Assembly: GCA_029260655.1 (NCBI GenBank)
Contig: JAJDCU010000061.1
Span: 1-52,484 of the forward strand
Source: Phycisphaeraceae bacterium
GTDB taxonomy: Bacteria; Planctomycetota; Phycisphaerae; Phycisphaerales; Phycisphaeraceae
Direction of reading: 5' to 3'
DNA length: 52,484 nt
Of this stretch, positions 17,328 through 37,209 are shown in pieces. The translations under genes and the position numbers were made by a program. Numbering within the stretch: the first letter of the stretch is position 1; each line of letters begins with the position of its first letter. Below the pieces are notes generated by a model. The model searched no databases and had not been told where the DNA came from. It saw only the letters and a list, made by a program, of their open reading frames with translations.

Positions 17328-17690
17328 CGATGCCGGTCGCACCGCCCCAGCCGCCAAACACCCGCTGTGGGGTCGGGCAGATCCGCCACCGGTCTGCTTG
17401 CGGACACGCACGTCCGGCCAGACGGATGCAAGGTGTTACGGAAAAGCGTGTTACGCCTAGCCCCTGACTCAGAGCACGGGCAAAGGGCTGTTAGCGGCCA
17501 TATCAATTTCGGGTGAGTAGGCTAAGCGGTGATCTTATCTGCCCGCCATCACCCGGTCCCCGGACTGATTTTCCTTGTATTCGGACCTCTCAGCCCTCAT
17601 AATGTGGGGTGCTTTCTCCCGTTTCTCTCCGCGATCGAACTGAGGGCGACCTCAGTGACGTGCTGTGCGTCAGACATGGGAGATCAGAAA

Positions 17691-18533
17691 ATGGTGGGGA
17701 AAACACGTCTTAATGGCCGTACGCTGACAGTTACTTCCGTCTTGCTAGCGATTGGATTGGTGGGGTTGGTCCTGCCTGCCCAGCGCGCCAGCGCCGACGC
17801 CGTGATGGGGACGTACGCCCAGCCCAGCATCATGGTCGCCGACGGTACCACGGTCTACACCGCCTGGGTCTTTGCTGACAACAATGGACTCAACGGCGCG
17901 TTGACCTGGGGAACCCAGCATCAATTCTTCCTCCCGCCGTACGCCACGCTCATCCCCGGCGGCCTGGGGATCGCCTACGGCAAGCCCGACCCGTCGCGCG
18001 ATTTCTTTGAAGGCAACCCCATGGTCTTCGAGGTCCTCTCCGCCCCGAATATCGTTTCCGGCAGGCTGGTCAACCAGGCCGACCAGATCGCCAACAAGCT
18101 CGGGGACCTGCAGTTCTACCGCTTCACGGTCAACCCCGGCGCGCCGACAGGGCCAGGCAACTTTGACTTAGGCCCAAGCTCCGTCATGACCGGCCCGGAC
18201 GCCGCCGCCCAGCCCTACACCAAGCAGAACATCCCCTTTACCATCACCAGCCTCGCGGGCGACTTCAACCTCGACGGCTTCGTCGGCATCGAAGACCTCA
18301 ACCTGGTCCTGGGAAACTTCAACGCCAGCACCAACACCTTCAACCCCCCGCCCGGCGACGCGACAGGCGACGGTTTCGTCGGCATCGAAGACCTCAACTG
18401 GGTCTTAGGCAACTGGAACGCCGGCACACCACCGCCGCCACCCGCAGCCGTCCCCGAGCCAGCCACCGCAACCCTGCTCGCCGCCGCGTGCCTGTCACTG
18501 CTGCGCAGGTCCTTACCTCTGTCGCTCGATTAA
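17691..18533 (+). CDS. PEP-CTERM protein with two dockerin-like repeats
   Basis: 280 aa from ATG 17691 (GGGAG 8 bases upstream). An N-terminal signal peptide (basic start, hydrophobic VTSVLLAIGLVGLVLPA, cleavage near ASA) leads to a domain of unknown function (about 35-190). Two EF-hand-like calcium loops follow, [14 protein letters not shown] and [14 protein letters not shown], each ending in VLGN(F/W)N, as in dockerin repeats. The tail is a Pro-rich linker, VPEP, a short hydrophobic stretch and arginines, which is the PEP-CTERM signal processed by exosortase. The 3' end overlaps the convergent glycosyltransferase gene by 21 bases. Confidence 0.85.
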   Translation: MVGKTRLNGRTLTVTSVLLAIGLVGLVLPAQRASADAVMGTYAQPSIMVADGTTVYTAWVFADNNGLNGALTWGTQHQFFLPPYATLIPGGLGIAYGKPDPSRDFFEGNPMVFEVLSAPNIVSGRLVNQADQIANKLGDLQFYRFTVNPGAPTGPGNFDLGPSSVMTGPDAAAQPYTKQNIPFTITSLAGDFNLDGFVGIEDLNLVLGNFNASTNTFNPPPGDATGDGFVGIEDLNWVLGNWNAGTPPPPPAAVPEPATATLLAAACLSLLRRSLPLSLD

Positions 18534-19754
18534 CCTGTGGTAAACATCCAGGATGTCGGCGGCGATAGGCTCCCAGGCGAAACGTGTATCCGACAGGTGT
18601 TTGGCGTAAGTGCCCATCTGCTCGCCGCGCTGTGGATCAGTTACGACCTGCAGGATTGCATCGGCCAGACGCTTGGGGCAGTTCGGCGGTACGAGCAAAC
18701 CGCTGCGCCCCTCCTCCACGACATCCGCCAGGTTGCCAACGCACGTGGCCACCACCGGTCGACCGAAAGCATAGGCCACCTGTAATGCCCCGCTTTGCGT
18801 ACCGCTTCGGTAGGGATAAACCAAGACACAGGCCCGCTTGACCAGGGCGCCAACCTGCTCGATGGGTACGTACCGCGTATCAAAGACGACCCGATCTTCG
18901 ACGGCGTAGTCGACCGTCATGCGGCGAAGCTGGTTGATGTCGATGAGTTTCGACGGGTAGCCGACTATGAGTAGCCGTGCATGCGGAGACTGCTGGCGTA
19001 CCAGTGCGAATGCCTCGATTAGATCCGGTAGGCCTTTGCTGGGCTGTAGGATACCGAAAAACAGAACGATCCTGTCATGTTCCTCTAGTTGGTAATACCG
19101 ATCCACGTCAAAGGTCTCTTGATCGGTCTGAGCCTTGGGCAGGAACAAGGATTCGTTGCCGTGCGCGATCAGGTGTGTTTGATTGACTGGGTAGCGAAAC
19201 ATCGACAAGAACCGTTTGCGCGTAGCTTCGCCGTGGAAGAAGATGGCATTGAAATATTGGTATGCAGGTGCCTGCAAACGAGTCAGGGCTGCAGCGAATC
19301 GTGAGCCAGACCGTTCTCGCAACTCATGCTCGTGCCCGATCTGCGACATGACCAGTCCGTGCCGCCGGAGCCTTGCCAGGAAGTATGCCATGAAGGGGAA
19401 GCGGACGATGCCAAATTGAACCACGTCGGGTTTCTGCTCGATTAGGTAACGAGCTAACGCAACGTGTTGGTGGACCAGACGCAGGCCCCGTGTGAGCCGC
19501 CTCAACGACCAAGTAGCCTTGCGCCATACGACCGAAAAAGGCCCCCTTGGAAGGCGCGTGGATTTTGGATCGAACGCGTGCCATAGTTTCAGACGGTTAT
19601 CAACACGGAAATTATGTGGTAGACCTTCTAGCTCGTATCCCCGTGCGGTGATCAGAGTCACCTCGGCTCCCTGGTCGGCCATGGCGGTACACAGCTGATA
19701 GGCGTAATGAATCAGGCCTCCCTGAGCGACCGGCTCGACGACGATGATCTTCAT
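18513..19754 (-). CDS. GT4-type glycosyltransferase
   Basis: 413 aa, GT-B fold, family 4-like. N-terminal domain opens MKIIVVEPVAQGGLIHYAYQLCTAM (nucleotide-sugar transferase type GG motif). The C-terminal domain has IVLFFGILQPSKGLPDLIEAF, ARLLIVGYP and SGALQVAYAFGRPVVAT...EEGRSGLLVPP, the donor-binding block of GT4 enzymes; the first glutamate of the usual E-x7-E motif is not obvious. Cytoplasmic, probably adding a sugar to a lipid-linked repeat unit. Last gene of the exopolysaccharide operon; its ATG overlaps the upstream stop by 4 bases (ATGA). Confidence 0.88.
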   Translation of the reverse strand: MKIIVVEPVAQGGLIHYAYQLCTAMADQGAEVTLITARGYELEGLPHNFRVDNRLKLWHAFDPKSTRLPRGPFSVVWRKATWSLRRLTRGLRLVHQHVALARYLIEQKPDVVQFGIVRFPFMAYFLARLRRHGLVMSQIGHEHELRERSGSRFAAALTRLQAPAYQYFNAIFFHGEATRKRFLSMFRYPVNQTHLIAHGNESLFLPKAQTDQETFDVDRYYQLEEHDRIVLFFGILQPSKGLPDLIEAFALVRQQSPHARLLIVGYPSKLIDINQLRRMTVDYAVEDRVVFDTRYVPIEQVGALVKRACVLVYPYRSGTQSGALQVAYAFGRPVVATCVGNLADVVEEGRSGLLVPPNCPKRLADAILQVVTDPQRGEQMGTYAKHLSDTRFAWEPIAADILDVYHRLIERQR

Positions 19755-20914
19755 GGGCTGGCCAGTTCGGTGTGGGGTGCCAGGAGCTCTTCATAGATCT
19801 CAGTCACACGCCGGATATGCACGTCGATGTCGAATCGCTGATCGGCAGCGCGGCGAGCGGCATGCGCGATGGATGAGGACAGGTTAGGTTGGTTCAGCAG
19901 TCTGAGGCAGGCATCGGCGAGCTTCGACGGATTTGATGGCGGCACAAGCAGCCCCGTGACCCCGTCCTCGATCATCTCGGCCACGCCGTCGACGTCACTG
20001 GCCACCACCGGTGTTCCTGCCGCCATCGCTTCAATGATGACCGTCGGCAACGAATCACGCAGTGTCGGTAAAACAAAAAGGTCGCTCGCAGTGAGTAGGT
20101 GAGGGACATCGTCGCGGTGCCCTGCAAACGTGATCCGGTCTGCCACACCCAGTGCCGTGGCTTGCGCCTTTAACATCAATTCATTCGGCCCGCTTCCAAC
20201 CACAAGCACACGGATCGCCGGTAGCGCTTTCGCCATTGTCGGCATCGCTTCAATCAGGTGCTGGATCCCCTTGGCGGGACGCAGCACCGCGACCGTGGTA
20301 ATCAGTGGCGCGTCAAATGGGATATTAAACGACCGACGTGCCGCCTCGCGGTCCGTCTGGCTCTGGCGGGCGAATTGCTGAAGATCGATGCCGTTATGGA
20401 CCGTCACGATCTTTCCCGGATCGAGGTTCGATCGTTTCAGGTGGTGCTCACGGACGGATTGTGAAACGGCGATGATTTGATCGCACGACCGGCTGAGCAC
20501 GCGATAGAGAAGTCGCTGTCGCCAGAGCGCTCGCGTGCCTCGGGGCGGATCCCCCAGGGTGTGAAGCGTCGTGATGTGCGGGATTCCAAGTTTCCGGCAC
20601 GCCGTGCCTCCCAAAGTCGCCGAAAAATCAAGATGCGTGTGCACGAGCGCCGGTCGCCGAGCACGAAGGTGGCGCTTAAGACGCAGGAAGCCTAGCGGGT
20701 CCAGAAGCCGGTGCACGCGGACCAAGTTTACGTCGAGGCCTGATTGCCGGATATCATCCGCGTTCACGTTGCCCTGCCGTACCGACAACGCACAAACGGA
20801 TGGGTCGTACCGATCACGGTTAAGGTGCTGGAGGAACCGTACCAGTTGGCGCTCCGCTCCACCAAACCCCAAGGCGTCGATCATGTACAGGATGCGTATG
20901 CGGCCGGCCGACAT
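19751..20914 (-). CDS. GT4-type glycosyltransferase
   Basis: 387 aa from ATG 20914, with AGGAGG 8 bases upstream; a TTG one codon earlier is less likely. GT-B fold: ILYMIDALGFGGAERQLVRFL (acceptor-domain GGAE motif), VHTHLDFSATLGG, VHNGIDLQQF, TVAVLRPAKGIQHLIEAM, LVVGSGP and DSLPTVIIEAMAAGTPVVASDVDG...EDGVTGLLVPP. It matches bacterial family 4 enzymes of capsule and O-antigen pathways. The start codon overlaps the previous stop as TGATG, implying translational coupling. Sugar and linkage cannot be predicted. Confidence 0.9.
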   Translation of the reverse strand: MSAGRIRILYMIDALGFGGAERQLVRFLQHLNRDRYDPSVCALSVRQGNVNADDIRQSGLDVNLVRVHRLLDPLGFLRLKRHLRARRPALVHTHLDFSATLGGTACRKLGIPHITTLHTLGDPPRGTRALWRQRLLYRVLSRSCDQIIAVSQSVREHHLKRSNLDPGKIVTVHNGIDLQQFARQSQTDREAARRSFNIPFDAPLITTVAVLRPAKGIQHLIEAMPTMAKALPAIRVLVVGSGPNELMLKAQATALGVADRITFAGHRDDVPHLLTASDLFVLPTLRDSLPTVIIEAMAAGTPVVASDVDGVAEMIEDGVTGLLVPPSNPSKLADACLRLLNQPNLSSSIAHAARRAADQRFDIDVHIRRVTEIYEELLAPHTELASP

Positions 20915-22104
20915 CAAAGATCCTCCTGACGTCGCACGCGATCCCAGAGCGGGGATTGTCGACCGGTGACGAAGCGAAACAACCCGATCACGGCTGCGAT
21001 GTTGCTGTTTACCAGGTAGGCAGGAACATACGCAAGACGCCGGACGCGGCTGGGGCCCTTGACATACTTACCAAGCAGGGCAGACACGTAAAACAATATC
21101 TGGGCGCCAAGCCCAAGCCAATTAAAAGGCATCGCAAGACGCCAAACCGCATAGCCGACCGCCTGCACCGGATCAATCACAGCCATCAGATTGGTCACCA
21201 GTGCTCCAGCCATACCCAGCGGCACCAACGGTCGCGCAAACTTGTGCGACAGCACCTGCCAGACGATCACCGGTCGGCCCCACGGCAAACACCACGGCGC
21301 CATCAGCATGGACTGGTAGCGACCTGCTACGATCCGGGCACGGCGTGACGCCTCTTCACGCGGTGTCGGCGAGACACGCTCGATCGAGCGCGCCTCCGGC
21401 TCATACACGATCCGGTAGCCTCGGCGAATCACACGCATCGCCAGATAAAAGTCGTCGTTAATCACGTTGGCGGGGATCGGCTCCACCAGCTCGCGCCGCA
21501 CCGCCAGCACTTCGCCCGCCACGGCCGTACAGCACCCAAGCCGTGTTTCCTGGCGCTTGATAAACGATTCGTATTTCCAGTAAATACCTTCGACCTCACC
21601 GAGCCTACCGTCGCCGGACCGGATCACCTTCGCACCGCTGACCGCACCTACCGAGGGGTCGTTAAATGGCGCAACCAGCTTACACAGGGTCTCAGGTTCG
21701 TAGAGATTGTTTGCGTCTGAAAAGACAACAACCTCACCCTTCGCCTGGCTCATCGCGTGGTTGATCGCAGCCGACTTGCCCCTCCGATCCGGTGAGAAGT
21801 TCAGTGTCACGTGTCGGTCCGCGAAGCTTTCGACGATTGCGACCGTCCGGTCATCGGACCCATCGGCAGCGACGATGGTCTGCAACAAGTCGCTTGGATA
21901 GCTGGAGGCCAGGCTATTTTCAAGTTTGTCGGCGATTACCTGCTGCTCATTGTATGCGGCGATCAGAAGCGTCACGCCAGGCAAGCAAGGAGGGTAAGGC
22001 CCGGGCCGCCTTCGCATATGAGCCAGAACCGCCAGGGCCAGCGGGTAGCCGGCATACACGTAGAACACACCACTGACACTTATCCAGAACAGCAACGCAA
22101 TCAT
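20914..22104 (-). CDS. GT2 glycosyltransferase, membrane-bound
   Basis: 396 aa. An N-terminal membrane helix (LLFWISVSGVFYVYAGYPLALAVLA) is followed by a GT-A catalytic domain: VTLLIAAYNEQQVI, IVAADGSDDRTVAIV, VVVFSDANNLY (DxN metal site), VINDDFYLAMRVIRRGYRI, and RRARIVAGRYQ at the place of the QxxRW motif. Two or more membrane segments end the protein. This resembles processive or membrane-anchored family 2 enzymes of exopolysaccharide systems. ATGA overlap with the flippase gene upstream. Confidence 0.88.
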   Translation of the reverse strand: MIALLFWISVSGVFYVYAGYPLALAVLAHMRRRPGPYPPCLPGVTLLIAAYNEQQVIADKLENSLASSYPSDLLQTIVAADGSDDRTVAIVESFADRHVTLNFSPDRRGKSAAINHAMSQAKGEVVVFSDANNLYEPETLCKLVAPFNDPSVGAVSGAKVIRSGDGRLGEVEGIYWKYESFIKRQETRLGCCTAVAGEVLAVRRELVEPIPANVINDDFYLAMRVIRRGYRIVYEPEARSIERVSPTPREEASRRARIVAGRYQSMLMAPWCLPWGRPVIVWQVLSHKFARPLVPLGMAGALVTNLMAVIDPVQAVGYAVWRLAMPFNWLGLGAQILFYVSALLGKYVKGPSRVRRLAYVPAYLVNSNIAAVIGLFRFVTGRQSPLWDRVRRQEDL

Positions 22105-23552
22105 GGCCGATTGTCCTGTTTCTCAGGCACGATCATCGAAGCGGTGTGACGGACTAAGTCTGGCTGGATTACCCACAAAGCCGCCCCATAAAGCACGGCC
22201 CCTGCCAACACGGATAACGCCAGCCGATGAGGCGCACCATAATCGGACAATGCCCAGCGGAGCGCCGTTGTCCCTATGAACATGACCAGGGAGGCGCACG
22301 CCGCCGGCCCCAAAGCCTTGAACAGGTCCAGGGCCCTAAGGTCAAGAAATCGGCCGACAACCGCCAGACGTAATACGGAATGGACCAGGCCCGTTATCAC
22401 AAGGCCGATCGAAACCGCGTAGATACTCCGACCGGCAGCCCACCACAGCACGGGGGCGGTCACTGCAAGCTGCAGAAGTATCAGCTTGTACAGCACATCA
22501 AGTCGCCCCGTGGCCTTGTAGACATCCCCCTCGTTCCCGGTCAGTGAATGGGTAAGAGCAAACAGTGAGAGCATCTGCATCACCGCAATCGAAGGTATCC
22601 AACGGTCAGAATAAAAGACCGTGACAAACTCGGGGCTGATCATGTACAAGCCCACGCCAAGCGGCGCGGTAAGTATCGCCATATACCGAAGTGTCATGAG
22701 GTATCCAGTGCGGAGTTGGTTTCGGTCGTGTTGGATCCGGGCATAGGCGGGGAACAACACATGGCTCATCGAGTAGCCGACGCTGAGGATGGCTAACTCC
22801 GGCATCCGGAACGCGATCGCATAATACCCCGCTTGTTCGGCATCCATGCGCAGGCCGATGAACAGGTAGTCCAGGCTGCTGCCTAGTGTTCCCAGTAGCG
22901 ACAGCATGACGATCGGTGTGCCATAGGCAAGGATCGCTCTGGCGATCGAACGATCAAAAGACAGCCGAGGCCGCCATCTGCAGAGCCCCCAATACAACGA
23001 CATAGCCGCGGCTCCGCCGGCGACCTGACCCCACACCAGGCTCCAGACACCCCAGCCCCACCACGCCATCAGGATTGCCACGCCGCCCTTCACGATGCTC
23101 TTGAACAGTTCAGGGACAAAACGCCGGTGAAAGGCCAGGTCCTTTTTGATCAGTGATTCGGGGATGTTTTTAAGATTGGCGACAAAAAAACCAACCGCCA
23201 ACACGCGCACGATGGGCGTGATTTGTGGATGATCAAATACGGCCGCGATACAAGGCGCCACGAGGATCACAGACAGGGCCAGCGCAGCGTCGATCACGAT
23301 CGAGAGAGTTAGCGCAACCCCCGCACTGCGATTAGGCGCTTCCTGACGGTAGATCAGCGCGGCGCCCACCCCCATACCGCTGATGCGATCCAGGTAATTG
23401 ATCGCGACCAACCCCAGCGCCAAGAGACCAAAATCATCCGGCGCTAACAAGCGGGCCAAGATAACGGTGCTTAAGAATATCAGCAGTTTGCCAACGGCAA
23501 AGGCGCCATAGTTCCAGACCCCGCCGATGGCCGTAGCACGTTTGAGGCTCAT
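22101..23552 (-). CDS. Wzx-type lipid-linked oligosaccharide flippase
   Basis: 483 aa, about 12-14 hydrophobic segments across the whole length. The N-terminus ATAIGGVWNYGAFAVGKLLIFLSTVILARLLAPDDFGLLALG is characteristic of the MOP-family polysaccharide transporters (Wzx/WzxC). It probably flips undecaprenyl-linked repeat units to the periplasmic side, where the neighbouring O-antigen ligase/polymerase acts. Overlaps both neighbours by 4 bases (ATGA). A clean ORF of the normal size. Confidence 0.9.
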   Translation of the reverse strand: MSLKRATAIGGVWNYGAFAVGKLLIFLSTVILARLLAPDDFGLLALGLVAINYLDRISGMGVGAALIYRQEAPNRSAGVALTLSIVIDAALALSVILVAPCIAAVFDHPQITPIVRVLAVGFFVANLKNIPESLIKKDLAFHRRFVPELFKSIVKGGVAILMAWWGWGVWSLVWGQVAGGAAAMSLYWGLCRWRPRLSFDRSIARAILAYGTPIVMLSLLGTLGSSLDYLFIGLRMDAEQAGYYAIAFRMPELAILSVGYSMSHVLFPAYARIQHDRNQLRTGYLMTLRYMAILTAPLGVGLYMISPEFVTVFYSDRWIPSIAVMQMLSLFALTHSLTGNEGDVYKATGRLDVLYKLILLQLAVTAPVLWWAAGRSIYAVSIGLVITGLVHSVLRLAVVGRFLDLRALDLFKALGPAACASLVMFIGTTALRWALSDYGAPHRLALSVLAGAVLYGAALWVIQPDLVRHTASMIVPEKQDNRP

Positions 23553-24913
23553 GCCGATGTCTCAGCTACCCGTGGCAGTGCAAAACCAAGCCCGAGCAAA
23601 AACCACATGTGATATGTAAACGTCGCGTGCAGGAATAGTGCGGCCACAAAATAGCCTATAGATCCGATTGTCAAAGCCGCGACCAACTCGGCATCCTTGC
23701 TCGTGCCGCTTCGGCTTAACACCAGCCGTGATCGCCTGGCGCCACACAGCAGGACGCAGAGCATGGATCCAAAAACAACACCGCCGGGCAAGCCTGTTTC
23801 GGCCAGCGTCTCCATGTAGAGATTGTGCGCCGAGCGTCTTTCCGTCCGCGGATCAATCCCCAGTTTCTGCGAATAGCGCTGGTAGTTTGCTTCATAGTTA
23901 TTCACGCCAACGCCCAGAACGGGGTGATCGCGAAACATCTGATAACTGACGATGTTCTCACTAATTCGGCCACGGAAACTCGGCTCAAGCAGCAGCTGAT
24001 CTGTAGCCGTCATGGTTGTCTCGGCAGTCTTTTGCACGGAGGTCTTGTCTCCACGGCTGGTCAGGAAATGGTGAAATCCCGTCATGCGACTTAAATAACC
24101 CTCTGGCAAGAGCGGCGCCAATGCGATCAGCAGCACACATGTGACCGCCAGGTTCACCAACCGTGGCCGCCGACGAATCACCACCGGAGTTAGCAAGGCC
24201 AGCATAACAACAGCCGACAGTCCCCCGGCTCGCGAATAGGTCAATACAATCGAGTACAGGCTGACAAAAAAAGCCCACGACGGCAAAACTAACTGCCAGA
24301 AGCGTTTGGCCGACCATAATCGATCCAGCGCCAATGGCACAACCACGAGCATGACCTGGGCGTAATAATTCGGGTCGCCGATCGACCCGGACGCCCGGAA
24401 GGCGTGTAGTTGGCCGACAATATGGCTGTATCTCGTCTCGCCGAAACCGCCAAGCGGGTGCTCGAACATGCCGGTCATATGCTGCGCTGTGCTGATCGTG
24501 CCCATCACGATGCCGGCAGCGAGGACCGCCCACACAACACGCCGAAGTGAAACCGCGGATTGAATCAGCACGGCCAAGATCATCACGATTAGGGCGCCTT
24601 TGCCCAAGAATGCGATCGCGTCCCAGGCGCGCTCGGGTTCGGTGGCGCCGGAGATCGACGCGATGCAGATCAGCCCATACCCCCCAATCCACAGCGCCGG
24701 CCGAAGCCACGCGCTCGGTCTTTGGCCCTCGAATAACCAACGCATTCCAGTGGCCAGCGCAACGATCCCAGACAGCAGACTCATGACCCGGCCTACGCCA
24801 AACACCGCACTGACCTGTGTGGACAGACACGTATAGAGAACAAACACCAATAGAGCCAAGCCACGGTCATCCCGCAGCACCGCACGATACGCCGTCTGCA
24901 GCCAGCCCATCAT
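23549..24913 (-). CDS. O-antigen ligase/polymerase family membrane protein
   Basis: 454 aa with about 10-12 membrane segments and a large periplasmic loop (about 265-370) carrying RGRISENIVSYQMFRDHPVLGVGVNNYE and RRSAHNLYMETLAETGLPG, the Wzy_C/WaaL signature with its conserved histidine. Such proteins either polymerise repeat units (Wzy) or ligate glycans to an acceptor; the sequence alone does not separate these. AAGGA lies 6 bases before ATG. The 52-base gap upstream to the glycosyltransferase is the largest within the operon. Confidence 0.88.
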   Translation of the reverse strand: MMGWLQTAYRAVLRDDRGLALLVFVLYTCLSTQVSAVFGVGRVMSLLSGIVALATGMRWLFEGQRPSAWLRPALWIGGYGLICIASISGATEPERAWDAIAFLGKGALIVMILAVLIQSAVSLRRVVWAVLAAGIVMGTISTAQHMTGMFEHPLGGFGETRYSHIVGQLHAFRASGSIGDPNYYAQVMLVVVPLALDRLWSAKRFWQLVLPSWAFFVSLYSIVLTYSRAGGLSAVVMLALLTPVVIRRRPRLVNLAVTCVLLIALAPLLPEGYLSRMTGFHHFLTSRGDKTSVQKTAETTMTATDQLLLEPSFRGRISENIVSYQMFRDHPVLGVGVNNYEANYQRYSQKLGIDPRTERRSAHNLYMETLAETGLPGGVVFGSMLCVLLCGARRSRLVLSRSGTSKDAELVAALTIGSIGYFVAALFLHATFTYHMWFLLGLGFALPRVAETSA

Positions 24914-24965: not shown

Positions 24966-26207
24966 TCAGTGGCGTTGAGCTTCGATTGTATCCTTAAACA
25001 GTGCCGCCAAGCGTTCTACACTACGGCCCAGATGAAATTCACGATGCACAAGCTCTCGCCCGGAAAGCCCCATCTCTTCGGCCTTGTCCGGCTCCTTATG
25101 GATCAAAGTCAGGCGGTCACACAATGCCGCGGCATCCGCTGGCGGTGTCAAGTACCCGGTTCTGCCGTCTTGGACCAGCTCCGGGATCCCGGATAGATGA
25201 CTCGCCACGACCGGCATGGCACAGGCCAAGGCTTCCATAATCGCCACGGGGATACCCTCCATTTTACCTGAGCGCGTCACGATGCTGGGCTGAACGTAGC
25301 AGTCGGCCGACGGCAGCATGGCCGATATCTGTTGCTGCGTCCTGGCGCCGAGCAACTGGACATGCGCATTGAGGTCGGCATCATCGATCATTTTTTGAAG
25401 CGCAGGACGAAGCTCGCCTTCACCCACAATCCGGCACCGTACCGGTATCCCACGGCTCCGAAGCAGCGAACAGGCCTGGATCAGATAGGCAAAGCCCTTG
25501 TAAGGCTGCAGGCTTCCCACGCTGACGATCTCGAAGGGTTCGGTCTTGCGGGTTTCGGCCTTGCGGGGTGCGTAGTTGTCCGGGTTAATGCCGCAGTGGA
25601 TGACGTGCGTCTTTTCTTGAACCCAGGGGCCGACCGTCTGCGTCAGGTATTCACGATTAAACCGAGAGATCGCCACAACAAACGCGGCGCTCCGTAGTTT
25701 TGTCGCCAGCATGGCTTTTCGCACGAAGATATCGTGCGCATGAACGGTCACGCTGTAGCTGATCCCCGTCAGGCGGTGGATCAGGTAGGCGAACAGGGCC
25801 GGATGTGTTGCGTAGTGAGCATGGATATGCTGAATGCCCTCCTGCTGCATCATGCGCGCTGCGTAGGCGGCCTTCGGAAACAGCATCAAGGCACGCAGGA
25901 GAAGATTTGGACTTGCTATGTTTTGGCTAACCACTTCGGCGGCAAGAGAGGCAAGGCAAGCCGGTCTGCGGATCAGTTCTACCCCGGCGCAGCCGAGGAT
26001 CGCTGGGGAAATAAGCCCGGGGCACCTCGAATCGGACAACCAGGATCGAGCCTCGTCATGGATCACCTCCGGCCTCTGCACGATCAACGGGTACAACGCC
26101 ACCTGCCAACCGAGCTGGCGGAGCTGAGTCATCTCACGCAGGATAAACGTCTCCGGCAGATGTGGGAAACGCGACATGACGTAGGCGACTTTGGACAACC
26201 GCGCCAT
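24966..26207 (-). CDS. GT4-type glycosyltransferase
   Basis: 413 aa from ATG 26207, which overlaps the upstream stop as TGATG; the ORF extends further upstream, but that part is out-of-frame shadow of the sugar transferase. GT-B fold: KVAYVMSRFPHLPETFILREMTQL at the N-terminus, a motif of the colanic-acid-type WcaL/ExpE subfamily; HIHAHYATHPALFAYL; VTVHAHDIFV; VIHCGINPDNY; IVSVGSLQPYKGFAYLIQA; and MEGIPVAIMEALACAMPVVAS...QDGRTGYLTPP with E-x7-E. It follows the initiating sugar transferase directly, so it may add the second sugar. Confidence 0.9.
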   Translation of the reverse strand: MARLSKVAYVMSRFPHLPETFILREMTQLRQLGWQVALYPLIVQRPEVIHDEARSWLSDSRCPGLISPAILGCAGVELIRRPACLASLAAEVVSQNIASPNLLLRALMLFPKAAYAARMMQQEGIQHIHAHYATHPALFAYLIHRLTGISYSVTVHAHDIFVRKAMLATKLRSAAFVVAISRFNREYLTQTVGPWVQEKTHVIHCGINPDNYAPRKAETRKTEPFEIVSVGSLQPYKGFAYLIQACSLLRSRGIPVRCRIVGEGELRPALQKMIDDADLNAHVQLLGARTQQQISAMLPSADCYVQPSIVTRSGKMEGIPVAIMEALACAMPVVASHLSGIPELVQDGRTGYLTPPADAAALCDRLTLIHKEPDKAEEMGLSGRELVHREFHLGRSVERLAALFKDTIEAQRH

Positions 26208-27772
26208 CAGTACACGCCTCGGATACAGATGACCGCCGGTATGGTGCGCAGCAGGATCTGTATGTCCAGCCATAGGCACCGGCGCTCGATGTAAGCGATG
26301 TCGAATCGGACGCGGCCTCCCCATTGCGCGTCTCCACGGCCGATCAATTGCCAAAGGCCGGTGATGCCCGGCATCACTTCCAATCGCTCGGTCTGCCATC
26401 GCTGATAGGTCTGCGGCGCAAAGGAGGTCGGCCGTGGACCGACCAGGCTCATGTCGCCCTTGAGAACGTTGAAAAGCTGGGGCAGTTCGTCAAGGCTTGA
26501 CTTCCTAAGGAAACGACCGATGCGCGTGACCCGCGGGTCATCGTCGATCTTATAATCGGGCCACTGACGGATATTTCGTGCCGCGTGCTCATGCTTGAGC
26601 AGTTCGGCATTAGACGCCATCGTTCGCAGCTTATACATGGTAAACCGTCTGCCGCCCTTGCCCGTGCGTTGCTGATAGAAGAAAACCGGATCGCGAGGGG
26701 AATCAAGTTTAATCAGCAAGGCGCAGATGCCCAATACAATCAGCCAGAACGGCATGGTGACTATAACGAGCGCCATATCCAACACCCACTTGGCGACCAG
26801 ATACTTATGCCCCCGTAACCAGCACCGATAGGGATTGATCCGCCTAAGCCACGGCGCACGGATGTACACGGAGCTTTCATCAGCCGACTGTGCCGTTGGC
26901 ACATCGTCCGTCTTTCCGTCCTCTTCGGCGTGATCGGTCCCTCCTTCCGGATTGTTATTGGGTGGCTCGTCGTCAGCACGGCCTTTGATACCGGCAAGCA
27001 GCCGATCTTCTGCGCAATGCGCCAAACCCTCGAACGTGACCCCATCGCCTGGGAAGCTCGCCATCGCGCAGTTGACTGATAGATCCAAGTGTTGACGGGT
27101 CTCGGCATAAATGCGCTGGATCAGTATTTCAGATCCATCAGCGCCTGTCTGTTGGCAAACGATAACCAGGTGGCCACCACTGGGTTGCTCCATCAGCAGA
27201 TCGGTGCTGCGGAGCAGAGGAAGCACCAAGTCGGTCAGTCGTGTATCCGGCGTAGACGGGCCCCGCGATGCATCCGAGGCAACCACCACAACGGATAACG
27301 GCTGGTTATGCCGTCGGGACAGCGCTAAGGCAGTCCGGACCATCTCCGCTGCCGACACCATCCGAGAAGTCGCTCGGCGAACGTCCGCAAGACGCGTCTT
27401 CCCGTAAGCCGTCTCAAACACACGCAGCGCATGCGCCAGGTGGTGAGCGATGACCACCAGGGCAGACAGCATCACAACCTCCACGCAGGAGATCCAGGTG
27501 TAGATGCCGCCGATCATCGGGTGGCTATTAAAAATGAGCAGCTTGGCGATCAGGTAAACGCTGAGGCAGATACCCACCAATAGGGCTGGAGAGATCCACA
27601 TCATCCACGGGATGGCGATGATCGCAACGGCGGCGAGGCTGGCGATCACGTAGACAAACGAACTGATGTCGATCAGGTTGTCTGACCCGAAGTCCAGCCG
27701 TTCGATGTTGAATAGCACCACCATCCCTATCAGCAAAACAACAACAGTAGCCGTGGGCCGAGAGGATGCCAT
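26207..27772 (-). CDS. Polyprenyl-phosphate sugar-1-phosphate transferase with degenerate GGDEF domain
   Basis: 521 aa. Residues 8-115: four hydrophobic segments. Residues about 130-262: a domain with the outline of GGDEF, where [20 protein letters not shown] stands in for the catalytic signature (GGHLV instead of GG(D/E)EF) and [10 protein letters not shown]...[14 protein letters not shown] fits the GGDEF C-terminal helix. Acidic linker 265-300. Residues 325-521: bacterial sugar transferase domain with [53 protein letters not shown] and PGITGLWQ. It should start repeat-unit synthesis by moving a sugar phosphate to undecaprenyl phosphate. First gene of the coupled operon. Confidence 0.88.
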
Positions 27773-27920: not shown

Positions 27921-28748
27921 TCAATTATCAAAAAAATCGGCCCACGGGGTGTCCGAAAAACGACGCCTTAATTCTGCGTAGTTGCTTATCGCTCGCGATA
28001 ACGGTTCTCTTGATTGCTTGAACGTTGTGGGTTCAACGGGACTCGGCGCAAGTCCTAGGAATGTCTGGACGCGGTAGATCTGTTCCACGTAATCGCTAGC
28101 CAATTCTTCGTACGTCAACTCTAACTTGTCGTGTCTCGAGAAAATCGTGTCGCAGGCTTGTTCGTGGCGTCGCGTCCGCTCGAATGAATCAAGGCAATCT
28201 TCATAATCCAGAGGAACCGACACCGCGGCCTCTTCCGCCCCGTGGGTGTTGACCCAACTGCCCGTACGGTTGGCCCTGCATCGCGACAGATACGCCTTGA
28301 GCATGTTCTTCCGCTTAAGGTGGATAATCCGTATCTCGCGATCGGTTTTCAGGTAGTCCCACACCGACCGCCACGTATCGTCGCGGGCGTGATGATAAAA
28401 AAGCTTAAACCCAACAGCCCTAAGGCGTTTGGGATAGCGCCTGAACAGCGTCTGTCGGAGAAATGCGACGGGGTCCGCCTCGATCAGCGCCAACGTTTTC
28501 CGTGAACGGGGGTATCCACGGATGTCCCAACCGATCGTACCGTGCTCCCGGAAGATTTCACCCAGCGCTACGGCGGTCGGGTGAGCGTTTAGCAGACCGC
28601 GCAAAAAGTTGGACCCCGAACGCTCTGTACCGATGATGACGAATCGCACATACGCTTGATGACCCGTTATTAACCCAAGATCGATCGCCCCAAGCGTAGA
28701 CCAGGTGACGCAGGCGCCCGTCGTCTTCTTGATGAACCTATGGAGCAA
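27921..28748 (-). CDS. Sulfotransferase-like protein
   Basis: 275 aa. Start is a TTG at 28748, supported by a GAGGA site (28757-28761) 8 bases upstream; GTG 28649 is an alternative. FVIIGTERSGSNFLRGLLNAHP is the P-loop-like 5'-phosphosulfate-binding motif of PAPS-dependent sulfotransferases, and IIHLKRKNMLKAYLSRCRA the 3'-phosphate-binding segment. C-terminal helix with TYEELASDYVEQIYRVQTFLGL fits Stf0/sulfotransfer_3 members. Lying 148 bases upstream of the polysaccharide operon on the same strand, it may sulfate the glycan; that is an inference. Confidence 0.85.
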   Translation of the reverse strand: MLHRFIKKTTGACVTWSTLGAIDLGLITGHQAYVRFVIIGTERSGSNFLRGLLNAHPTAVALGEIFREHGTIGWDIRGYPRSRKTLALIEADPVAFLRQTLFRRYPKRLRAVGFKLFYHHARDDTWRSVWDYLKTDREIRIIHLKRKNMLKAYLSRCRANRTGSWVNTHGAEEAAVSVPLDYEDCLDSFERTRRHEQACDTIFSRHDKLELTYEELASDYVEQIYRVQTFLGLAPSPVEPTTFKQSREPLSRAISNYAELRRRFSDTPWADFFDN

Positions 28749-28810
28749 AATCAGCGTCCTCGAATGCTTGGGCCGCGGTATTTATCATCCATAATCATGT
28801 CATGTGATAT

Positions 28811-28816
28811 TATAAT
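28811..28816 (+). promoter_or_regulatory. Candidate -10 box for the esterase gene
   Basis: TATAAT in an AT-rich stretch 122 bases before the esterase ATG. No convincing -35 is seen. Confidence 0.3.
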
Positions 28817-28937
28817 GTGCTTCGGCGACATAGTTCAGAATCCTTATCGAGCCACCGATCCTTTCATCGATGATTCCCGCACCGATTGGTGGCAAAATGG
28901 TTGGTCTTTACATGCTAGAAACCCGCTGCCTCTTCTC

Positions 28938-30497
28938 ATGAAAACAAAGATCCTGCTGCTAGCCTTCGCCTGGATAGTCATCACAGGAACAGTTGTGATC
29001 TCGTGGCGGGCCACACGCCCGGCGCCCGAGACGATGGCCACCCCAGCTACTCCGCCAACCGCCCTGAAGCTTCCGGCCGTTTTCGGCCACCACATGGTTC
29101 TTCAACGCGACAGGCCCGTCAGGGTATGGGGCTGGGCGCCACCGGGGCAGCGCGTTGAACTGCGCATCGCTTCACAATCCCGATATGTCCAAGCTGATGA
29201 CGGAGGGGATTGGTCCACCACGCTCGACCCCATGCCTGCCGGCGGGCCGTTTACTATGGATGTTTCTACCGAAGCGAGTTCAATTTCCGTAAACGATATC
29301 CTTGTCGGAGATGTCTGGCTCTGTTCGGGTCAATCCAATATGGAGATGACTGTTGCGCCCGACTATTACCCCGGCGTTAACGACTACGAGCAAGTCCTGG
29401 CAGGGGCCAACCAGCCAGATATCCGTCTGTTTAAGCTGCGTAACCGTACATCCAGCCGGCCCGAGACAGACGTGCAAGCGGCATGGCAGCTGTGTTCGCC
29501 CGAGCGGGTCCTTCAGTTCTCAGCCGTGGCCTACTGCTTCGGTAAACAGTTGAACGAGGAGTTGGACGTACCGATCGGCCTGATCAGTACGTCATGGGGA
29601 GGGACACCTTGCGAAGCCTGGACCTGCCGAGCTGCGCTCGAATCGCTGCCCTCGGCCCGTAATATCCTGACCACCTGGGATCAAGCCGTCAGCCGTCACA
29701 AGCACGATGCGCAGCAATCAGAACGACGCGACCCCGCTGATAGTCAGCGCCGCCCCGCTAACCTGTTCAACGCCATGATCCGACCGCTGATCCCTTACAC
29801 ACTTCGCGGTGTCATCTGGTACCAGGGAGAGCAGAACGTCTCACGGGCGGAGCAGTATCAAACGCTGTTCCCCTTGATGATCCGTGACTGGCGCGAACAT
29901 TGGGGGCAGGGTGACTTCCCCTTCTACTTCGTGCAGATCGCCAACTACACCCGGCCGACCGCGCAGCCGGCCCCCAGCGCGATGGCTGAACTCCGCGAAG
30001 CACAACTCATGGCCGTGAAAGTCCCGAATACGGCGATGGCCGTCTCCATCGACATCGGTGAATCCGACAATATCCACCCACGCAATAAGCAGGAGGTCGC
30101 CCGTCGCCTGGCGCTCTGTGCGCTGGCCAATGAGTATGGCCAAACCAACATCAACCACAGCGGCCCGCTCTATCAGCGGATGGCGATCGAATCCAATCGC
30201 ATCCGGCTTTATTTTGATCACACCGATGGCGGGCTCGTCGCCCAAGGCGGACCGCTACAGCGCATCCAGATCGCGGGGGCCGATCGGCAATTCGTCTGGG
30301 CAAAGGCCATGATTGACGGCGACACGGTTGTCGTTTTCAGCGAACAGGTCCCAGCCCCACGGGCCGTCCGTTACGCATGGGCAGATAACCCGCAAGGCTG
30401 CAACCTTTATAACGGACAAGGCCTCCCCGCTTCACCCTTCCGCACGGATCGGTGGCCAGGCATCACCGCCGGGAAAACCATCCCATCGGTGAATTAG
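28938..30497 (+). CDS. Sialate O-acetylesterase family (SASA) enzyme
   Basis: 519 aa from ATG 28938; an ORF extension to 28740 overlaps the sulfotransferase start and is not used. An N-terminal signal anchor or signal peptide (KILLLAFAWIVITGTVVIS) is followed by LKLPAVFGHHMVLQRDRPVRVWGWAPPG, the usual N-terminal beta domain. The catalytic SGNH-like motifs are WLCSGQSNMEMTV (Ser), GGTPCEAW, VIWYQGEQNV and DNIHPRNKQEVARRLAL (Asp/His). Such enzymes deacetylate sialic acid or other acetylated sugars outside the cytoplasm. Divergent from the sulfotransferase gene, possibly part of glycan use or remodelling. Confidence 0.9.
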   Translation: MKTKILLLAFAWIVITGTVVISWRATRPAPETMATPATPPTALKLPAVFGHHMVLQRDRPVRVWGWAPPGQRVELRIASQSRYVQADDGGDWSTTLDPMPAGGPFTMDVSTEASSISVNDILVGDVWLCSGQSNMEMTVAPDYYPGVNDYEQVLAGANQPDIRLFKLRNRTSSRPETDVQAAWQLCSPERVLQFSAVAYCFGKQLNEELDVPIGLISTSWGGTPCEAWTCRAALESLPSARNILTTWDQAVSRHKHDAQQSERRDPADSQRRPANLFNAMIRPLIPYTLRGVIWYQGEQNVSRAEQYQTLFPLMIRDWREHWGQGDFPFYFVQIANYTRPTAQPAPSAMAELREAQLMAVKVPNTAMAVSIDIGESDNIHPRNKQEVARRLALCALANEYGQTNINHSGPLYQRMAIESNRIRLYFDHTDGGLVAQGGPLQRIQIAGADRQFVWAKAMIDGDTVVVFSEQVPAPRAVRYAWADNPQGCNLYNGQGLPASPFRTDRWPGITAGKTIPSVN

Positions 30498-31973: not shown

Positions 31974-32002
31974 AACCGCGATGATGGGCCATCATCGCGG
32001 TT
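31974..32002. repeat. 29-bp palindrome with perfect 14-bp arms
   Basis: AACCGCGATGATGG and CCATCATCGCGGTT flank a single G. It directly follows the last left-end binding site. There is no T-run, so it may be a protein site or a barrier hairpin rather than a terminator. Confidence 0.7.
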
Positions 32003-32059
32003 CTAATTTCGTGATCCCTGCGCGCTGCGCGCTCCCTGCGCGCGGTTTTGGCCCGATAA

Positions 32060-32695
32060 TCAGGGAATCGTCAAAGTGGGGGCCGGGATCAGACGGCGTT
32101 TTTTAGGGCCCGATCGGCTCGCTGTCGGTGGAAGTTCCGGTCGTCGGATCGCTCCGGCAGCGGGGCTGCCAGGTCGCCCGGCAGGGGCTTCTCTCCACGG
32201 CCCGGCGGGACCATCGAATTGCCCCCGGAAGTTGTCCCCGGAACCCGACCCGGGACGGTCGGCCTGATCTATAGAGGGCGTGGGCTCGCCGGGGTCGGCC
32301 TGGGCGGCGGTCCTGGCATCGGCTGCTTCGAGCTGGCGGCAGGCGGTGTAGAACGGCGTGACCCAGCGGTAGACGGTGGACCTTGGAAGCTCCCGGCCGA
32401 AGCGCTCGGCGAGCAGGGTTTGAGGCTGCTTCAAACGGCCTTCGGGGGTCAGTAGCAGGCGGGCGAACTCGGTCAGCTCATCGGGCGTCAACTCGAAGAC
32501 GCGGCTCTTGGTGCCGACCATTTTTAAGCGGTGGATCGCCCGGCGGGCCATGAGCAATTCGGGGCTGGTGGTGGTGATGACGGCACGGGCGGCTTCGTCG
32601 TCCAGATCGGCCAGGAGGTCCGACGCACGGCGGATCACGTCGCGCAGGTCGGCGACGATCGCGTGGTATCGGGCGTGTGTGTTCGGCTCGCTCAT
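32060..32695 (-). CDS. HTH-like element protein, paralog of the gene at 37841
   Basis: 211 aa, leftward arm. The middle (about 55-120) has SRVFELTPDELTEFARLLLTPEG followed by LLAERFGRELPRSTVYRW, which reads as a helix-turn-helix like that of DUF3486 (Mu gp27-like) small proteins. The same pattern is in the 140-aa protein at 37841, so the two are related. The C-terminal 90 residues are Pro/Gly/Arg-rich and low in complexity, possibly disordered. Possible roles are DNA binding in packaging (small-terminase-like) or regulation; neither is shown. It is the last gene before the left end. Confidence 0.68.
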   Translation of the reverse strand: MSEPNTHARYHAIVADLRDVIRRASDLLADLDDEAARAVITTTSPELLMARRAIHRLKMVGTKSRVFELTPDELTEFARLLLTPEGRLKQPQTLLAERFGRELPRSTVYRWVTPFYTACRQLEAADARTAAQADPGEPTPSIDQADRPGSGSGDNFRGQFDGPAGPWREAPAGRPGSPAAGAIRRPELPPTASRSGPKKRRLIPAPTLTIP

Positions 32696-32743
32696 CCGGT
32701 CGATCGTCCGTGAATTAATCCGGTATGGAAGATCCGAATAATA

Positions 32744-33232
32744 CTATTTCAATAGGCTTTTATCGTCGTCACCGACGTCTTCATCGTATGGATAGCCACG
32801 CACTGGAGGCCCGAGGTCTTGATTCTCAACGATATCACTAACATCGTCACGTATGCGTTTCAAGGCGTCTTCATTGGCAAGCTGAAGCCAAATCATAATG
32901 TCACGTCTAAGCAATCTAGCTGGTTCACTTTTTGCCCAATCGGGCACGGGCAGGTCAGGGGGTGTTCTTGTTCTGGCAAGCTTATAGGGGTCGGTGTGGT
33001 ACCAAGTAAAGAAGAGTGCGTGCTTGTCCACTTCAAGAGCTGCACATAACGCCTCATCCAAGCCCATGCGCATTTCAGCGGGTGGCCGGGACATACCCAT
33101 CCAACGACTCAACTGTTGACGTGAGCAACCGACCTTTTTCGCCAGGTCCAATTTACGTTTGATACCGATCGCCTGGGCACGCGATTCGATCCAAAATCCC
33201 CAGTGATTTTCATAGGTCTTACTCACATTCAA
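32744..33232 (-). CDS. XRE-like HTH protein, probable element repressor
   Basis: 162 aa. N-terminal helix-turn-helix about residues 25-50: KRKLDLAKKVGCSRQQLSRWMGMSRPP. The rest is a helical C-terminal region with no peptidase or membrane segment. It is encoded next to a divergent, AT-rich intergenic region with palindromes, the usual place for a phage repressor (c-type) gene. Transcribed leftward with the gene at 32060, 48 bases downstream. The name is inferred from fold and position. Confidence 0.72.
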   Translation of the reverse strand: MNVSKTYENHWGFWIESRAQAIGIKRKLDLAKKVGCSRQQLSRWMGMSRPPAEMRMGLDEALCAALEVDKHALFFTWYHTDPYKLARTRTPPDLPVPDWAKSEPARLLRRDIMIWLQLANEDALKRIRDDVSDIVENQDLGPPVRGYPYDEDVGDDDKSLLK

Positions 33233-33389
33233 GTTGTACGTCGTAAATCCATTTATTTCAACGGGCTATGTCTCATTAATGAGCTAATTAATCGACAAAT
33301 TTCCTTACACCGAGCTTGCGTGACATTTATGCGTCATGTAATATACGTTTAGTTGCCGATGATATATCGGGCTCAAGGATGAGACAACT
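33233..33389. promoter_or_regulatory. Divergent control region of the element
   Basis: 157 AT-rich bases between repressor-like and rightward genes. It contains the perfect 12-bp palindrome CTCATTAATGAG (33271-33282), a nearby CTAATTAAT, and TGAC-8-GTCA (about 33319-33334). For the rightward transcript, TTGCGT and TAATAT are 17 bp apart (about 33313-33341), a fair sigma-70 promoter that overlaps the TGAC/GTCA repeat. Operator roles are inferred. Confidence 0.5.
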
Positions 33390-33620
33390 ATGCCAGTCAC
33401 AATCAAACACCCCAAACTCGAAGCGAAGCTGGCCCTCCTGGGCCGTGCCAATCCTGTTCCGGCATCAAAGCGTGCCCTCACGTTGGCTATCCTGAACGCG
33501 GCCGTCGACGCGGCCAGAAAGCGCGGCGTAACGATCGGCCGGATCATCACAGAACTAAGAACAACGGGCAGATCCACGGCAGCGAAGCCGCGACGTAGGA
33601 AGCGAGCCACCAAGCAATGA
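33390..33620 (+). CDS. Small basic element protein
   Basis: 76 aa, first gene of the rightward arm. One helical region (ASKRALTLAILNAAVDAARKRGVTIGRIITELRTT) and a strongly basic tail (KPRRRKRATK). Likely binds nucleic acid. An AAGGA site is 11 bases before the ATG. Its position opposite the repressor-like gene is that of a Cro/Ner-type regulator, but no clear HTH is seen. Function unknown. Confidence 0.6.
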   Translation: MPVTIKHPKLEAKLALLGRANPVPASKRALTLAILNAAVDAARKRGVTIGRIITELRTTGRSTAAKPRRRKRATKQ

Positions 33621-33736
33621 CACAACCCAAACCGTCGGCGACGTAGCCGGCGTGGTGTGGGCGGGTGCTTAAATCAAAGTGCCTCCCGCACCGGTGAGAC
33701 CTTGGCAGGAAACGCACCAGAACGAAAGGCAGCATC

Positions 33737-34060
33737 ATGGTACAGGCAACGAAGGCGAAAACAAACGGACGATCCAGAGCGGCCCGTAACGGGAACGGGC
33801 ATACACCCGGTCGTATCGCGGTTGAGTTCCCCGAGCTACGCGGCGAGGAAAACGCGGATGGCGACCGGATCAGCAACGCGGACAGCCGCTACGGCGTACC
33901 TGTGCCGATCGGCGCGACGGTATTGACCGGCCAAGGTGACGGCGTTGTGATCGGCGGGACCGATCAGCTCGCCATCATCCAAGATGAAAAGGGCTGGCAG
34001 TACGCGGAGCGGTGGGGCGTGATCCACGTCCAGGCATCCGGCCCGGCGTTCGATGTGTAG
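33737..34060 (+). CDS. Hypothetical element protein
   Basis: 107 aa. A disordered basic N-terminus (residues 1-25) leads to a beta-rich region: YGVPVPIGATVLTGQGDGVVIGGTDQLAIIQDEKGWQYAERWGVIHVQ, which suggests a small SH3-like barrel. No family recognised. GAAAGG precedes the ATG at a usable distance. In line with the neighbouring rightward genes. Confidence 0.55.
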   Translation: MVQATKAKTNGRSRAARNGNGHTPGRIAVEFPELRGEENADGDRISNADSRYGVPVPIGATVLTGQGDGVVIGGTDQLAIIQDEKGWQYAERWGVIHVQASGPAFDV

Positions 34061-34122
34061 TGACGTTTGGTTACAAAAGGTGACAAAGACACAGGGAAGT
34101 TCAGGAAAACAGAGGATGACCA

Positions 34123-34572
34123 ATGCCACGGACGGCAGCCAACACACCCAAGCAACCCGGACGGGCCACACGCGCGCTTATGTTTTTGTATCGGCTGATC
34201 CGTGCAACGCGCACGCTCGGCCGCGAGATCAAGCGGGCCAACGCGCTGCGTGTGGAATACAACCGCCTGGGTAAGAAGTTCCCGGCCACGCTTGAGGACT
34301 TGAACGACGACGAATACGCGGAGGTCTACGACCGCAATGAGTGGACGCTGGATCAGCTTATCGACATCGCCGGCCGGATGGAGCACCGGATTGCGCCTTC
34401 GCAGATTATGCGCGCCAGCATCGACGCGGTGGCGGACGCGGCCGCGATCGGTGAATTGGACCTGAGCATGTGCCGCAGCGAGGCGGAACTCAAGGCCCGG
34501 CTATTAACCCGGCTATTGATCTACAGCCAACGCGAGCGCGACCAGGCGGCGGCGCCGGGGGGTGAAGGATGA
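34123..34572 (+). CDS. Hypothetical helical element protein
   Basis: 149 aa, mostly helical (FLYRLIRATRTLGREIKRANALRVEYNRL; DQLIDIAGRMEHRIAPSQIMRASIDAVADAAA). No membrane segment or signal. Its stop overlaps the next start by 4 bases (ATGA), so the two are coupled. A role before the head genes (packaging or regulation) would be a guess. Confidence 0.6.
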   Translation: MPRTAANTPKQPGRATRALMFLYRLIRATRTLGREIKRANALRVEYNRLGKKFPATLEDLNDDEYAEVYDRNEWTLDQLIDIAGRMEHRIAPSQIMRASIDAVADAAAIGELDLSMCRSEAELKARLLTRLLIYSQRERDQAAAPGGEG

Positions 34573-34892
34573 CGGCGGGGTCGAAGCCCTACAACGCGAC
34601 CGGGCAGTTGATCGACAACCTGCCCTGTGTCCAGGCGGCGGGCGGGCTGGACGGCTGGCTCCGCGAGGTCGTGGCGGAAACTAAGACGAAGGTCATGGCA
34701 AGCCTGGATGAGATTCGCGGCCAGGACGACCTCACCATTGTCGATCACTGCTACGACGTGCTTTGTGACGTGATGCTGCGCCGTATCACGCCGGACGCCA
34801 AGGCGATTCTTTTACAGATGGCGAAGAGTGGCAAGCTGTACGAACGCTACGCAAATGAACATTCGGGCGACCACGGAGGCGACAAGCTATGA
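34569..34892 (+). CDS. Hypothetical element protein
   Basis: 107 aa. Small helical protein (GLDGWLREVVAETKTKVMASLDEI; VDHCYDVLCDVMLRRITPDAKAILLQMAKSGKLYERY). ATGA overlaps on both sides link it to the upstream gene and the prohead protease, so it belongs to the head operon. No family recognised. Confidence 0.6.
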   Translation: MTAGSKPYNATGQLIDNLPCVQAAGGLDGWLREVVAETKTKVMASLDEIRGQDDLTIVDHCYDVLCDVMLRRITPDAKAILLQMAKSGKLYERYANEHSGDHGGDKL

Positions 34893-35875: not shown

Positions 35876-35893
35876 CGCCTCCCTTGTGTTAGG

Positions 35894-35926
35894 GGCCGGG
35901 GCCGTTCGTCCATAGCGGCCCCGGCC
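35894..35926 (+). terminator. Hairpin between protease and capsid genes
   Basis: Perfect 11-bp stem GGCCGGGGCCG/CGGCCCCGGCC, 11-nt loop, then GTTTTGG, 18 bases after the protease stop. Could reduce read-through or protect mRNA ends. Confidence 0.6.
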
Positions 35927-35999
35927 GTTTTGGACCCTAAGCGAGCAGTAACCCGGCCCCGGCCGGTATCAAAAACCAACGAAAAAAGGAAATGAGAGT

Positions 36000-37190: not shown

Positions 37191-37209
37191 GCGACAACCT
37201 TCCGACCCG

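Follow-up and report, generated by a model that had tools for sequence, protein, structure and literature searches.

Why should an enzyme that starts the assembly of an exopolysaccharide (EPS) carry, ahead of its catalytic part, what looks like a diguanylate cyclase deprived of its active site? The question is raised by a single gene in contig JAJDCU010000061.1 of a Phycisphaeraceae bacterium (assembly GCA_029260655.1), whose 52,484 nucleotides, analysed as a whole, are referred to here as the window. Its product would be the initiating phosphoglycosyl transferase (PGT) of a Wzx/Wzy-type EPS cluster, and joined to it in one chain is a regulatory membrane module made of N-terminal helices and a dead GGDEF domain. 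In our reading, which is drawn from sequence and predicted structure, the fused domain is probably an I-site receptor for cyclic di-GMP (c-di-GMP) that gates the first step of the pathway. The first-pass annotation of this DNA had ordered the protein as membrane helices, GGDEF-like part and sugar transferase, and this order proved correct, the gene being found on the minus strand.

Searched as a single sequence, the protein gave little indication of its middle domain: neither Pfam nor NCBIfam reported GGDEF at E ≤ 10, a search of the PDB returned in effect the PGT part only, and a hidden Markov model built here from 18 GGDEF sequences scored the protein at E 3.7, within the score range of ordinary PGTs. 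The N-terminal part alone, run against 397 genomes of the window's class, recovered its own gene and weak matches with a best E of 6.8e-4. Six of these were aligned, besides a protein designated L043 that is treated below; in-register GGDEF domains make up four of them (L125, L126, L132 and L133), while L140 fits a diverged GGDEF domain and L128 resembles a chance reading frame. The window domain itself aligns weakly but in register with the true GGDEF stretch RNSDILARYGGDEFVIILPETG, and its signature position falls in register with the GGDEF-VII of true diguanylate cyclases.

A 32-row family profile of related modules (A1) was far more informative, and a PDB search with it placed diguanylate cyclases first (best E 3.1e-11). 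At E ≤ 1, 23 of the 32 rows matched Pfam GGDEF (best 3.4e-6) and 17 matched TIGR00254, the window row being in neither set. The RxxD column of the profile aligned with the RxxD of DosC (4zve) and with that of DgcR (6zxm), a structure whose title names a c-di-GMP complex. An AlphaFold2 model of the window protein, built from 43 alignment rows, had a mean predicted local distance difference test (pLDDT) value of 83.4, with averages per ten residues between 76 and 96 across 141–260 and values below 50 at 127–135. Foldseek matched this model to PglC and WbaP, by the PGT part, and then to GGDEF domains (4urq, E 7.7e-7), while VIA aligned 131 residues (134–265) with the GGDEF domain of YfiN (4iob) at Z 17.5 and a root-mean-square deviation (rmsd) of 1.8 Å. 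The outline of GGDEF claimed at first pass holds; profile search and structure prediction had been proposed there as the checks, with a fold unlike GGDEF as the outcome that would speak against it, and both returned a GGDEF fold. Since the family profile and the predicted fold find the domain, the single-sequence misses reflect a limit of sensitivity, and the middle domain is confirmed, at the level of profile and model, as a member of the GGDEF fold superfamily. Its boundaries, at first placed at residues 130–262, are better set at 134–267 according to the model and the structure alignment.

The catalytic end is represented by PF02397 (residues 328–515, E 3.1e-59), the sole Pfam match of the window protein at E ≤ 10; PF13727, the middle domain of WbaP, was not found at that threshold, and the GGDEF fold fills its slot. 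Sugar-transferase families of NCBIfam matched below their cut-offs, almost all within the C-terminal sugar-transferase part, and TIGR03025 (EPS_sugtrans), with 246.6 bits over residues 325–519 only, missed its curated cut-off of 295.55. The stretch with D428-E429 is identical in the WbaP alignments, and we take this pair to be the catalytic Asp-Glu pair of monotopic PGTs. On these sequence features the domain is an intact monotopic PGT, with PF02397 recognized and the Asp-Glu pair kept. At the N-terminus, hydropathy reveals four hydrophobic membrane segments ending at about residue 108, and three at the same threshold in the ortholog L014; the model places helices at residues 2–22, 38–59, 62–80 and 90–133.

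The GG(D/E)EF active-site motif is missing from the window domain, SGGHL standing in its place, and GG[DE]EF occurs in none of the 32 rows of A1, in agreement with the first-pass view that the signature is degenerate and c-di-GMP synthesis unlikely. An RxxD motif (R188-S-T-D191), which had gone unmentioned, is kept, and L014, 70% identical, reads R-G-T-D at the same position. Counting along the sequence, R220 would presumably match a further I-site arginine of PleD. Of the two ligands first put forward, GTP and c-di-GMP, retention of the I-site RxxD speaks for the latter, whereas GTP is weakened by the universal loss of GG[DE]EF in A1 and by a gap of 16 residues in the window domain. The genome itself contains 12 GGDEF, 8 EAL and 12 PilZ matches, so that c-di-GMP is very probably both made and sensed in this organism.

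A link between the module and the PGT is seen in its distribution. The full window protein was matched end to end in one of 100 other genomes (G004, 70% identity), which is one of five other genomes of its genus. A scan of genome contigs with the full protein was dominated by ordinary PGTs, and the best 80 of at least 596 matches supplied both L043, a Chloroflexota protein of the same layout, and soluble proteins of Methylobacter type. The N-terminus of L043 matched 30 of 298 genomes of its class, giving 30 loci with four PGT fusions (L043 included) and 26 standalone module open reading frames (ORFs), 25 of 277–337 amino acids (aa) and one of 418 aa; two further matches lie outside these loci. 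A same-strand PGT frame comes after the module in 24 of the 26, beginning no more than 100 bp from the module stop in 21 of them and about 500–590 bp past it in the other three. Among 294 genomes of the window's phylum, a full-length module was present in four, its own included, with a wide gap in E below these matches (2.5e-68 versus 8.8e-22 for the next); the other three all adjoin a PGT ORF, located upstream of the module in two. When 400 genomes from the phylum Chloroflexota were sampled later, 23 gave matches, five of them seen before, and each of the 18 new standalone modules is directly followed by a same-strand PGT ORF, carries RxxD and lacks GG[DE]EF; six of the 18 (L292–L297) are close relatives of one another. 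In the phylum, soluble-family and 400-genome searches at most 6 to 12 candidates per genome were scored and up to 30 loci taken from each search, and the counts cover these.

In total, 45 of 47 standalone modules (44 from Chloroflexota, three from the window's phylum) adjoin a PGT ORF. One exception is a locus whose gene contains unread bases (N), which prevents a judgement. The other is L181, a divergent 413-aa module with RTVD (L214:6285-7523, plus strand); no PGT ORF occurs in the 13 kb read at this locus, and a nearby protein of 1334 aa is weakly similar to the GT2-type glycosyltransferase (GT) of the window. At two loci (L217:4775-5356; L219:8242-8829, minus strand) a small ORF of 194–196 aa is placed between module and PGT.

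The partner enzymes show the same relationship. In the split pair of L290 the PGT is 66% identical to the window PGT domain and the module 38%, and split-partner PGTs of RxxD modules range from 53 to 64%, while the PGT-only matches listed among 101 genomes reach at most 50%; of the PGTs seen outside the genus, none is closer in sequence to the window PGT than those from split pairs, which reach 66%. Distance matrices of modules and PGTs correlate (r 0.63 over 33 of 35 pairs, with none of 5000 permutations as high). Together, helices and dead GGDEF domain form a mobile module travelling with PGTs. The earlier proposal that glycan synthesis is controlled at its first step is backed by this operon linkage, by repeated fusion and by synteny, and since relatives keep both parts as neighbouring genes, a messenger directly switching the first polymer step is suggested.

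A tree of 32 modules was computed without the RxxD columns; its alignment (A3) omits the same three of the 26 standalone modules as alignment A2, which also leaves out 10 of the 24 partner PGTs, and adds L184–L186. One branch (96/91) parts 16 rows with RxxD from 16 lacking it, so that the motif is present in all 16 modules of the window's clade and absent in the sister clade (L185, L186, L164–L167, L170, L171, L175–L177, L182, L043 and L154–L156). The fusion of the window and L014 is nested among split RxxD modules, and the Chloroflexota fusions (L043, L154–L156) fall on the RxxD-less side, a topology showing that module and PGT were fused at least twice. Because the same two genes were fused repeatedly in the same order, their products are likely to act together. 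A ranking of conservation among RxxD rows was dropped as circular, since the group was defined by RxxD.

A second family combines a dead GGDEF domain and a PGT in soluble form. Several PGTs from relatives and from Methylobacter or Methyloglobulus (L049, L052 and L077) have an N-terminal domain with R-x-T-D and no preceding membrane helices. Searches of the window's class (248 genomes) and of the class of L049 (229 genomes) gave 60 loci, in 18 of which the ORF is fused to a PGT, two of these being known before, and most further matches looked at were ordinary GGDEF proteins. Counting the six first found, the fused soluble proteins total 22; a pattern search shows no GG[DE]EF in the 18, inspection by eye shows none in the remaining ones, and RxxD is present in all 22. 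In an alignment of 20 of them (A5, which omits L234 and L240), with a mean identity of only 24%, the R and D of RxxD are among only seven invariant columns. A model of this family (ten-residue pLDDT means of 84–97 over residues 21–130) finds GGDEF folds as its matches, including PelD at E 3.3e-4, and shows no last helix of GGDEF. At two of the loci, L247 and L248, a protein of 584 aa whose GGDEF motif is intact shares the stretch with a PGT ORF and is perhaps a local c-di-GMP source for a PGT.

In the mechanism that we propose, active diguanylate cyclases of the cell would make c-di-GMP, which would dock at R188xxD191 of the dead GGDEF domain as it does in the I-site receptors PelD and PssE. 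Docking might change how the GGDEF/helix module packs or dimerises, and the altered module would switch the adjacent PGT domain; we infer that it most likely does so by activation rather than inhibition. Sugar-phosphate would then be committed to the scarce undecaprenyl-phosphate carrier only at high c-di-GMP.

Several observations weigh against this reading. Intact GG[DE]EF domains also carry RxxD, in 7 of 11 cases in the same genome and in 55 of 62 across all loci, the latter a query-biased set; retention of RxxD as proof of an I-site was rejected on these grounds, and the case rests instead on the motif being kept after loss of the A-site and on the existence of an RxxD-less sister clade. 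In the window, RxxD lies six residues from the motif position and not the canonical five, and the 16-residue gap, relative to most Chloroflexota relatives, falls shortly before it. Over all membrane modules RxxD is found in 37 of 53 (18/32, 1/3 among L184–L186 and 18/18), and 16 of the 32 A3 rows, the four Chloroflexota fusions included, lack it although a PGT adjoins their module or is fused to it, which indicates that coupling to the enzyme needs no I-site. The clade without RxxD gives real evidence for a further role of the module, or another ligand, in part of the family. Shared species history, moreover, accounts for part of the correlation between the module and PGT matrices.

These same facts, the linkage without RxxD and the frequency of RxxD in intact domains, would be expected if the dead GGDEF domain were structural, holding a PGT dimer or anchoring the PGT to the membrane module without any ligand, with RxxD kept for the fold at a helix-strand corner. 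In WbaP the cytoplasmic domain is reported to contribute to the stability of the dimer (PMC10942596). We nevertheless consider a structural role unlikely, given that the fold evidently does without these residues in the RxxD-less clade, yet they are kept in 16/16, 18/18 and 22/22 members elsewhere. Sensing of another nucleotide, such as GTP, (p)ppGpp or the product UMP, with feedback control of the PGT, appears distinctly less probable still. It would cover the RxxD-less lineages, the corresponding slot in WbaP is occupied by PF13727, for which UMP sensing is reported (PMC10942596), and PleD structures with c-di-GMP plus ppGpp or pppGpp were among the fold matches; however, the conserved residues are at the I-site and not at the A-site motif, which is lost from every A1 row, and the window domain has 16 residues missing before RxxD. 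That the domain is a functionless cyclase remnant joined to the PGT gene by chance, as its lost catalytic motif and the low identity among relatives might suggest, is very improbable in view of an ortholog, 70% identical, that another species of the genus has within the same nine-gene order, of the PGT ORF beside 45 of 47 standalone modules and of the repeated fusion.

Returning to c-di-GMP reception at the I-site, we incline, by a small margin of belief, to the broader view that dead-GGDEF I-site modules let c-di-GMP gate the initiating PGT directly, and that this is a common control mode of Wzx/Wzy-type pathways, as yet without a name, in at least two forms. One would be the membrane module, split or fused, in Chloroflexota and the window's phylum, and the other the soluble N-terminal domain in the window's class and the relatives of Methylobacter. 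If so, commitment of the lipid carrier would come under the same messenger as the synthase-dependent polymers. The module is a concrete one, being bound to the initiating PGT by fusion and gene neighbourhood and carrying a known docking motif, and it offers a rule for annotation: a membrane protein of this type of about 300 aa encoded directly before a short PGT gene is a likely PGT regulator.

The features of the fusion gene and of the cluster around it are given in Table 1. In G004 (locus L224) the same order of nine genes is found, counting in a carbohydrate esterase of SASA type that in the window (28740-30494, plus strand) diverges from the operon and has its ortholog in the same place. 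The GT4 gene following the fusion is matched at E 1e-153 to 1e-158 by the gene after the PGT in L215, L216, L218 and L220, that is, in four of 14 other context loci, all four from Chloroflexota, and Wzy- and Wzx-like genes come next in L216 and L220. Exchange of whole clusters between phyla is the likely explanation for this shared GT4/Wzy/Wzx order. At the other end, convergent with the EPS operon, window 17529-18530 (plus strand) encodes a secreted-looking protein that, by eye, has dockerin-like repeats and a PEP-CTERM-like tail, and for which no Pfam match at E ≤ 0.001 was found. ORFs resembling prophage genes (protease- and capsid-like, by eye) occupy about 32000-37200 of the window.

Table 1. 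Coordinates in the window of the fusion gene, its parts and the genes of its cluster
Feature	Position	Strand	Basis
Whole fusion gene: N-terminal membrane helices, degenerate GGDEF and monotopic PGT, 521 aa	26207..27772	minus	ATG-start ORF
N-terminal membrane part, aa 2-133	27374..27769	minus	model secondary structure, hydropathy
Degenerate GGDEF domain, aa 134-267	26972..27373	minus	alignment, family profile, AlphaFold2 fold
I-site motif RxxD, R188-S-T-D191	27200..27211	minus	sequence; family column aligned with 6zxm and 4zve
SGGHL, aa 198-202, at the GG(D/E)EF position	27167..27181	minus	alignment
Acidic low-confidence linker, aa 268-298	26879..26971	minus	pLDDT <50 at 269-297
PGT domain of monotopic type (PF02397, Bac_transf), aa 321-521; SLDELPQLF contains the Asp-Glu pair D428-E429	26210..26812	minus	Pfam, structure matches
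Sulfotransferase (Sulfotransfer_3), upstream gene	27921..28748	minus	Pfam
GT4-type glycosyltransferase, next gene	24966..26207	minus	start overlaps PGT stop as TGATG
Wzy_C / O-antigen ligase-polymerase type protein	23549..24913	minus	Pfam
Wzx-like flippase (Polysacc_synt_3)	22101..23552	minus	Pfam
GT2-type glycosyltransferase	20914..22104	minus	
GT4-type glycosyltransferase	19751..20917	minus	
GT4-type glycosyltransferase	18513..19754	minus	

The ingredients of this arrangement are all of known kinds, and their combination appears to be new, an I-site-bearing dead GGDEF domain inside or directly beside an initiating PGT not having been found in print in open-access PMC full text. NfrB of Escherichia coli, as described in PMC8669472, is likewise a glycan enzyme with a built-in c-di-GMP-binding domain, putative in the window protein, but there an MshEN-like domain accompanies a BcsA-like GT proposed to polymerise and not an initiating PGT. 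In Myxococcus xanthus, EpsW and EpsZ are reported as a case in which a signalling protein allosterically switches the initiating PGT post-translationally in Wzx/Wzy-dependent EPS synthesis (PMC12802240); EpsW is a separate phosphorylated response regulator, whereas the control module considered here is a fused or operonic dead GGDEF domain.

WbaP (8t53) shares with the window protein the succession of a four-helix bundle, a cytoplasmic domain and a PGT domain, four membrane helices preceding the catalytic domain as in large monotopic PGTs of WbaP type, and VIA aligned the two over 215 residues (Z 20.9, rmsd 6.7 Å). They differ in the middle domain, which is PF13727 in WbaP and a degenerate GGDEF domain with an I-site motif in the window protein. 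PelD of Pseudomonas aeruginosa, which along with BcsE provides a c-di-GMP precedent, is described as having four N-terminal helices and a degenerate GGDEF domain whose RxxD binds c-di-GMP in EPS control (PMC8461298). N-terminal helices, degenerate GGDEF and RxxD all recur in the window protein; PelD, however, has a GAF domain before its GGDEF domain and serves Pel, not a PGT. Membership of the PelD family was rejected, since the last hydrophobic segment of the window protein ends at about residue 108 and its GGDEF domain starts at 134, leaving one helix between, too short for GAF. Neither PelD nor BcsE was among the structure matches listed for the window model, which is no evidence of their absence.

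The N-terminal part of PssE of Listeria monocytogenes spans the membrane. Like the window domain, PssE combines a degenerate GGDEF and RxxD in an EPS cluster, its RxxD lying five residues before the lost motif; residues 107-285 are reported to bind c-di-GMP with a Kd of 0.79 µM, and the gene, located in the EPS operon, to be required for EPS synthesis (PMC4125290). According to the same source, PssE is a separate protein and its cluster is likened to those for cellulose, alginate and Pel, whereas the module described here belongs to a Wzx/Wzy-type cluster, in which it forms one protein with the initiating PGT or is encoded by the gene directly next to it.

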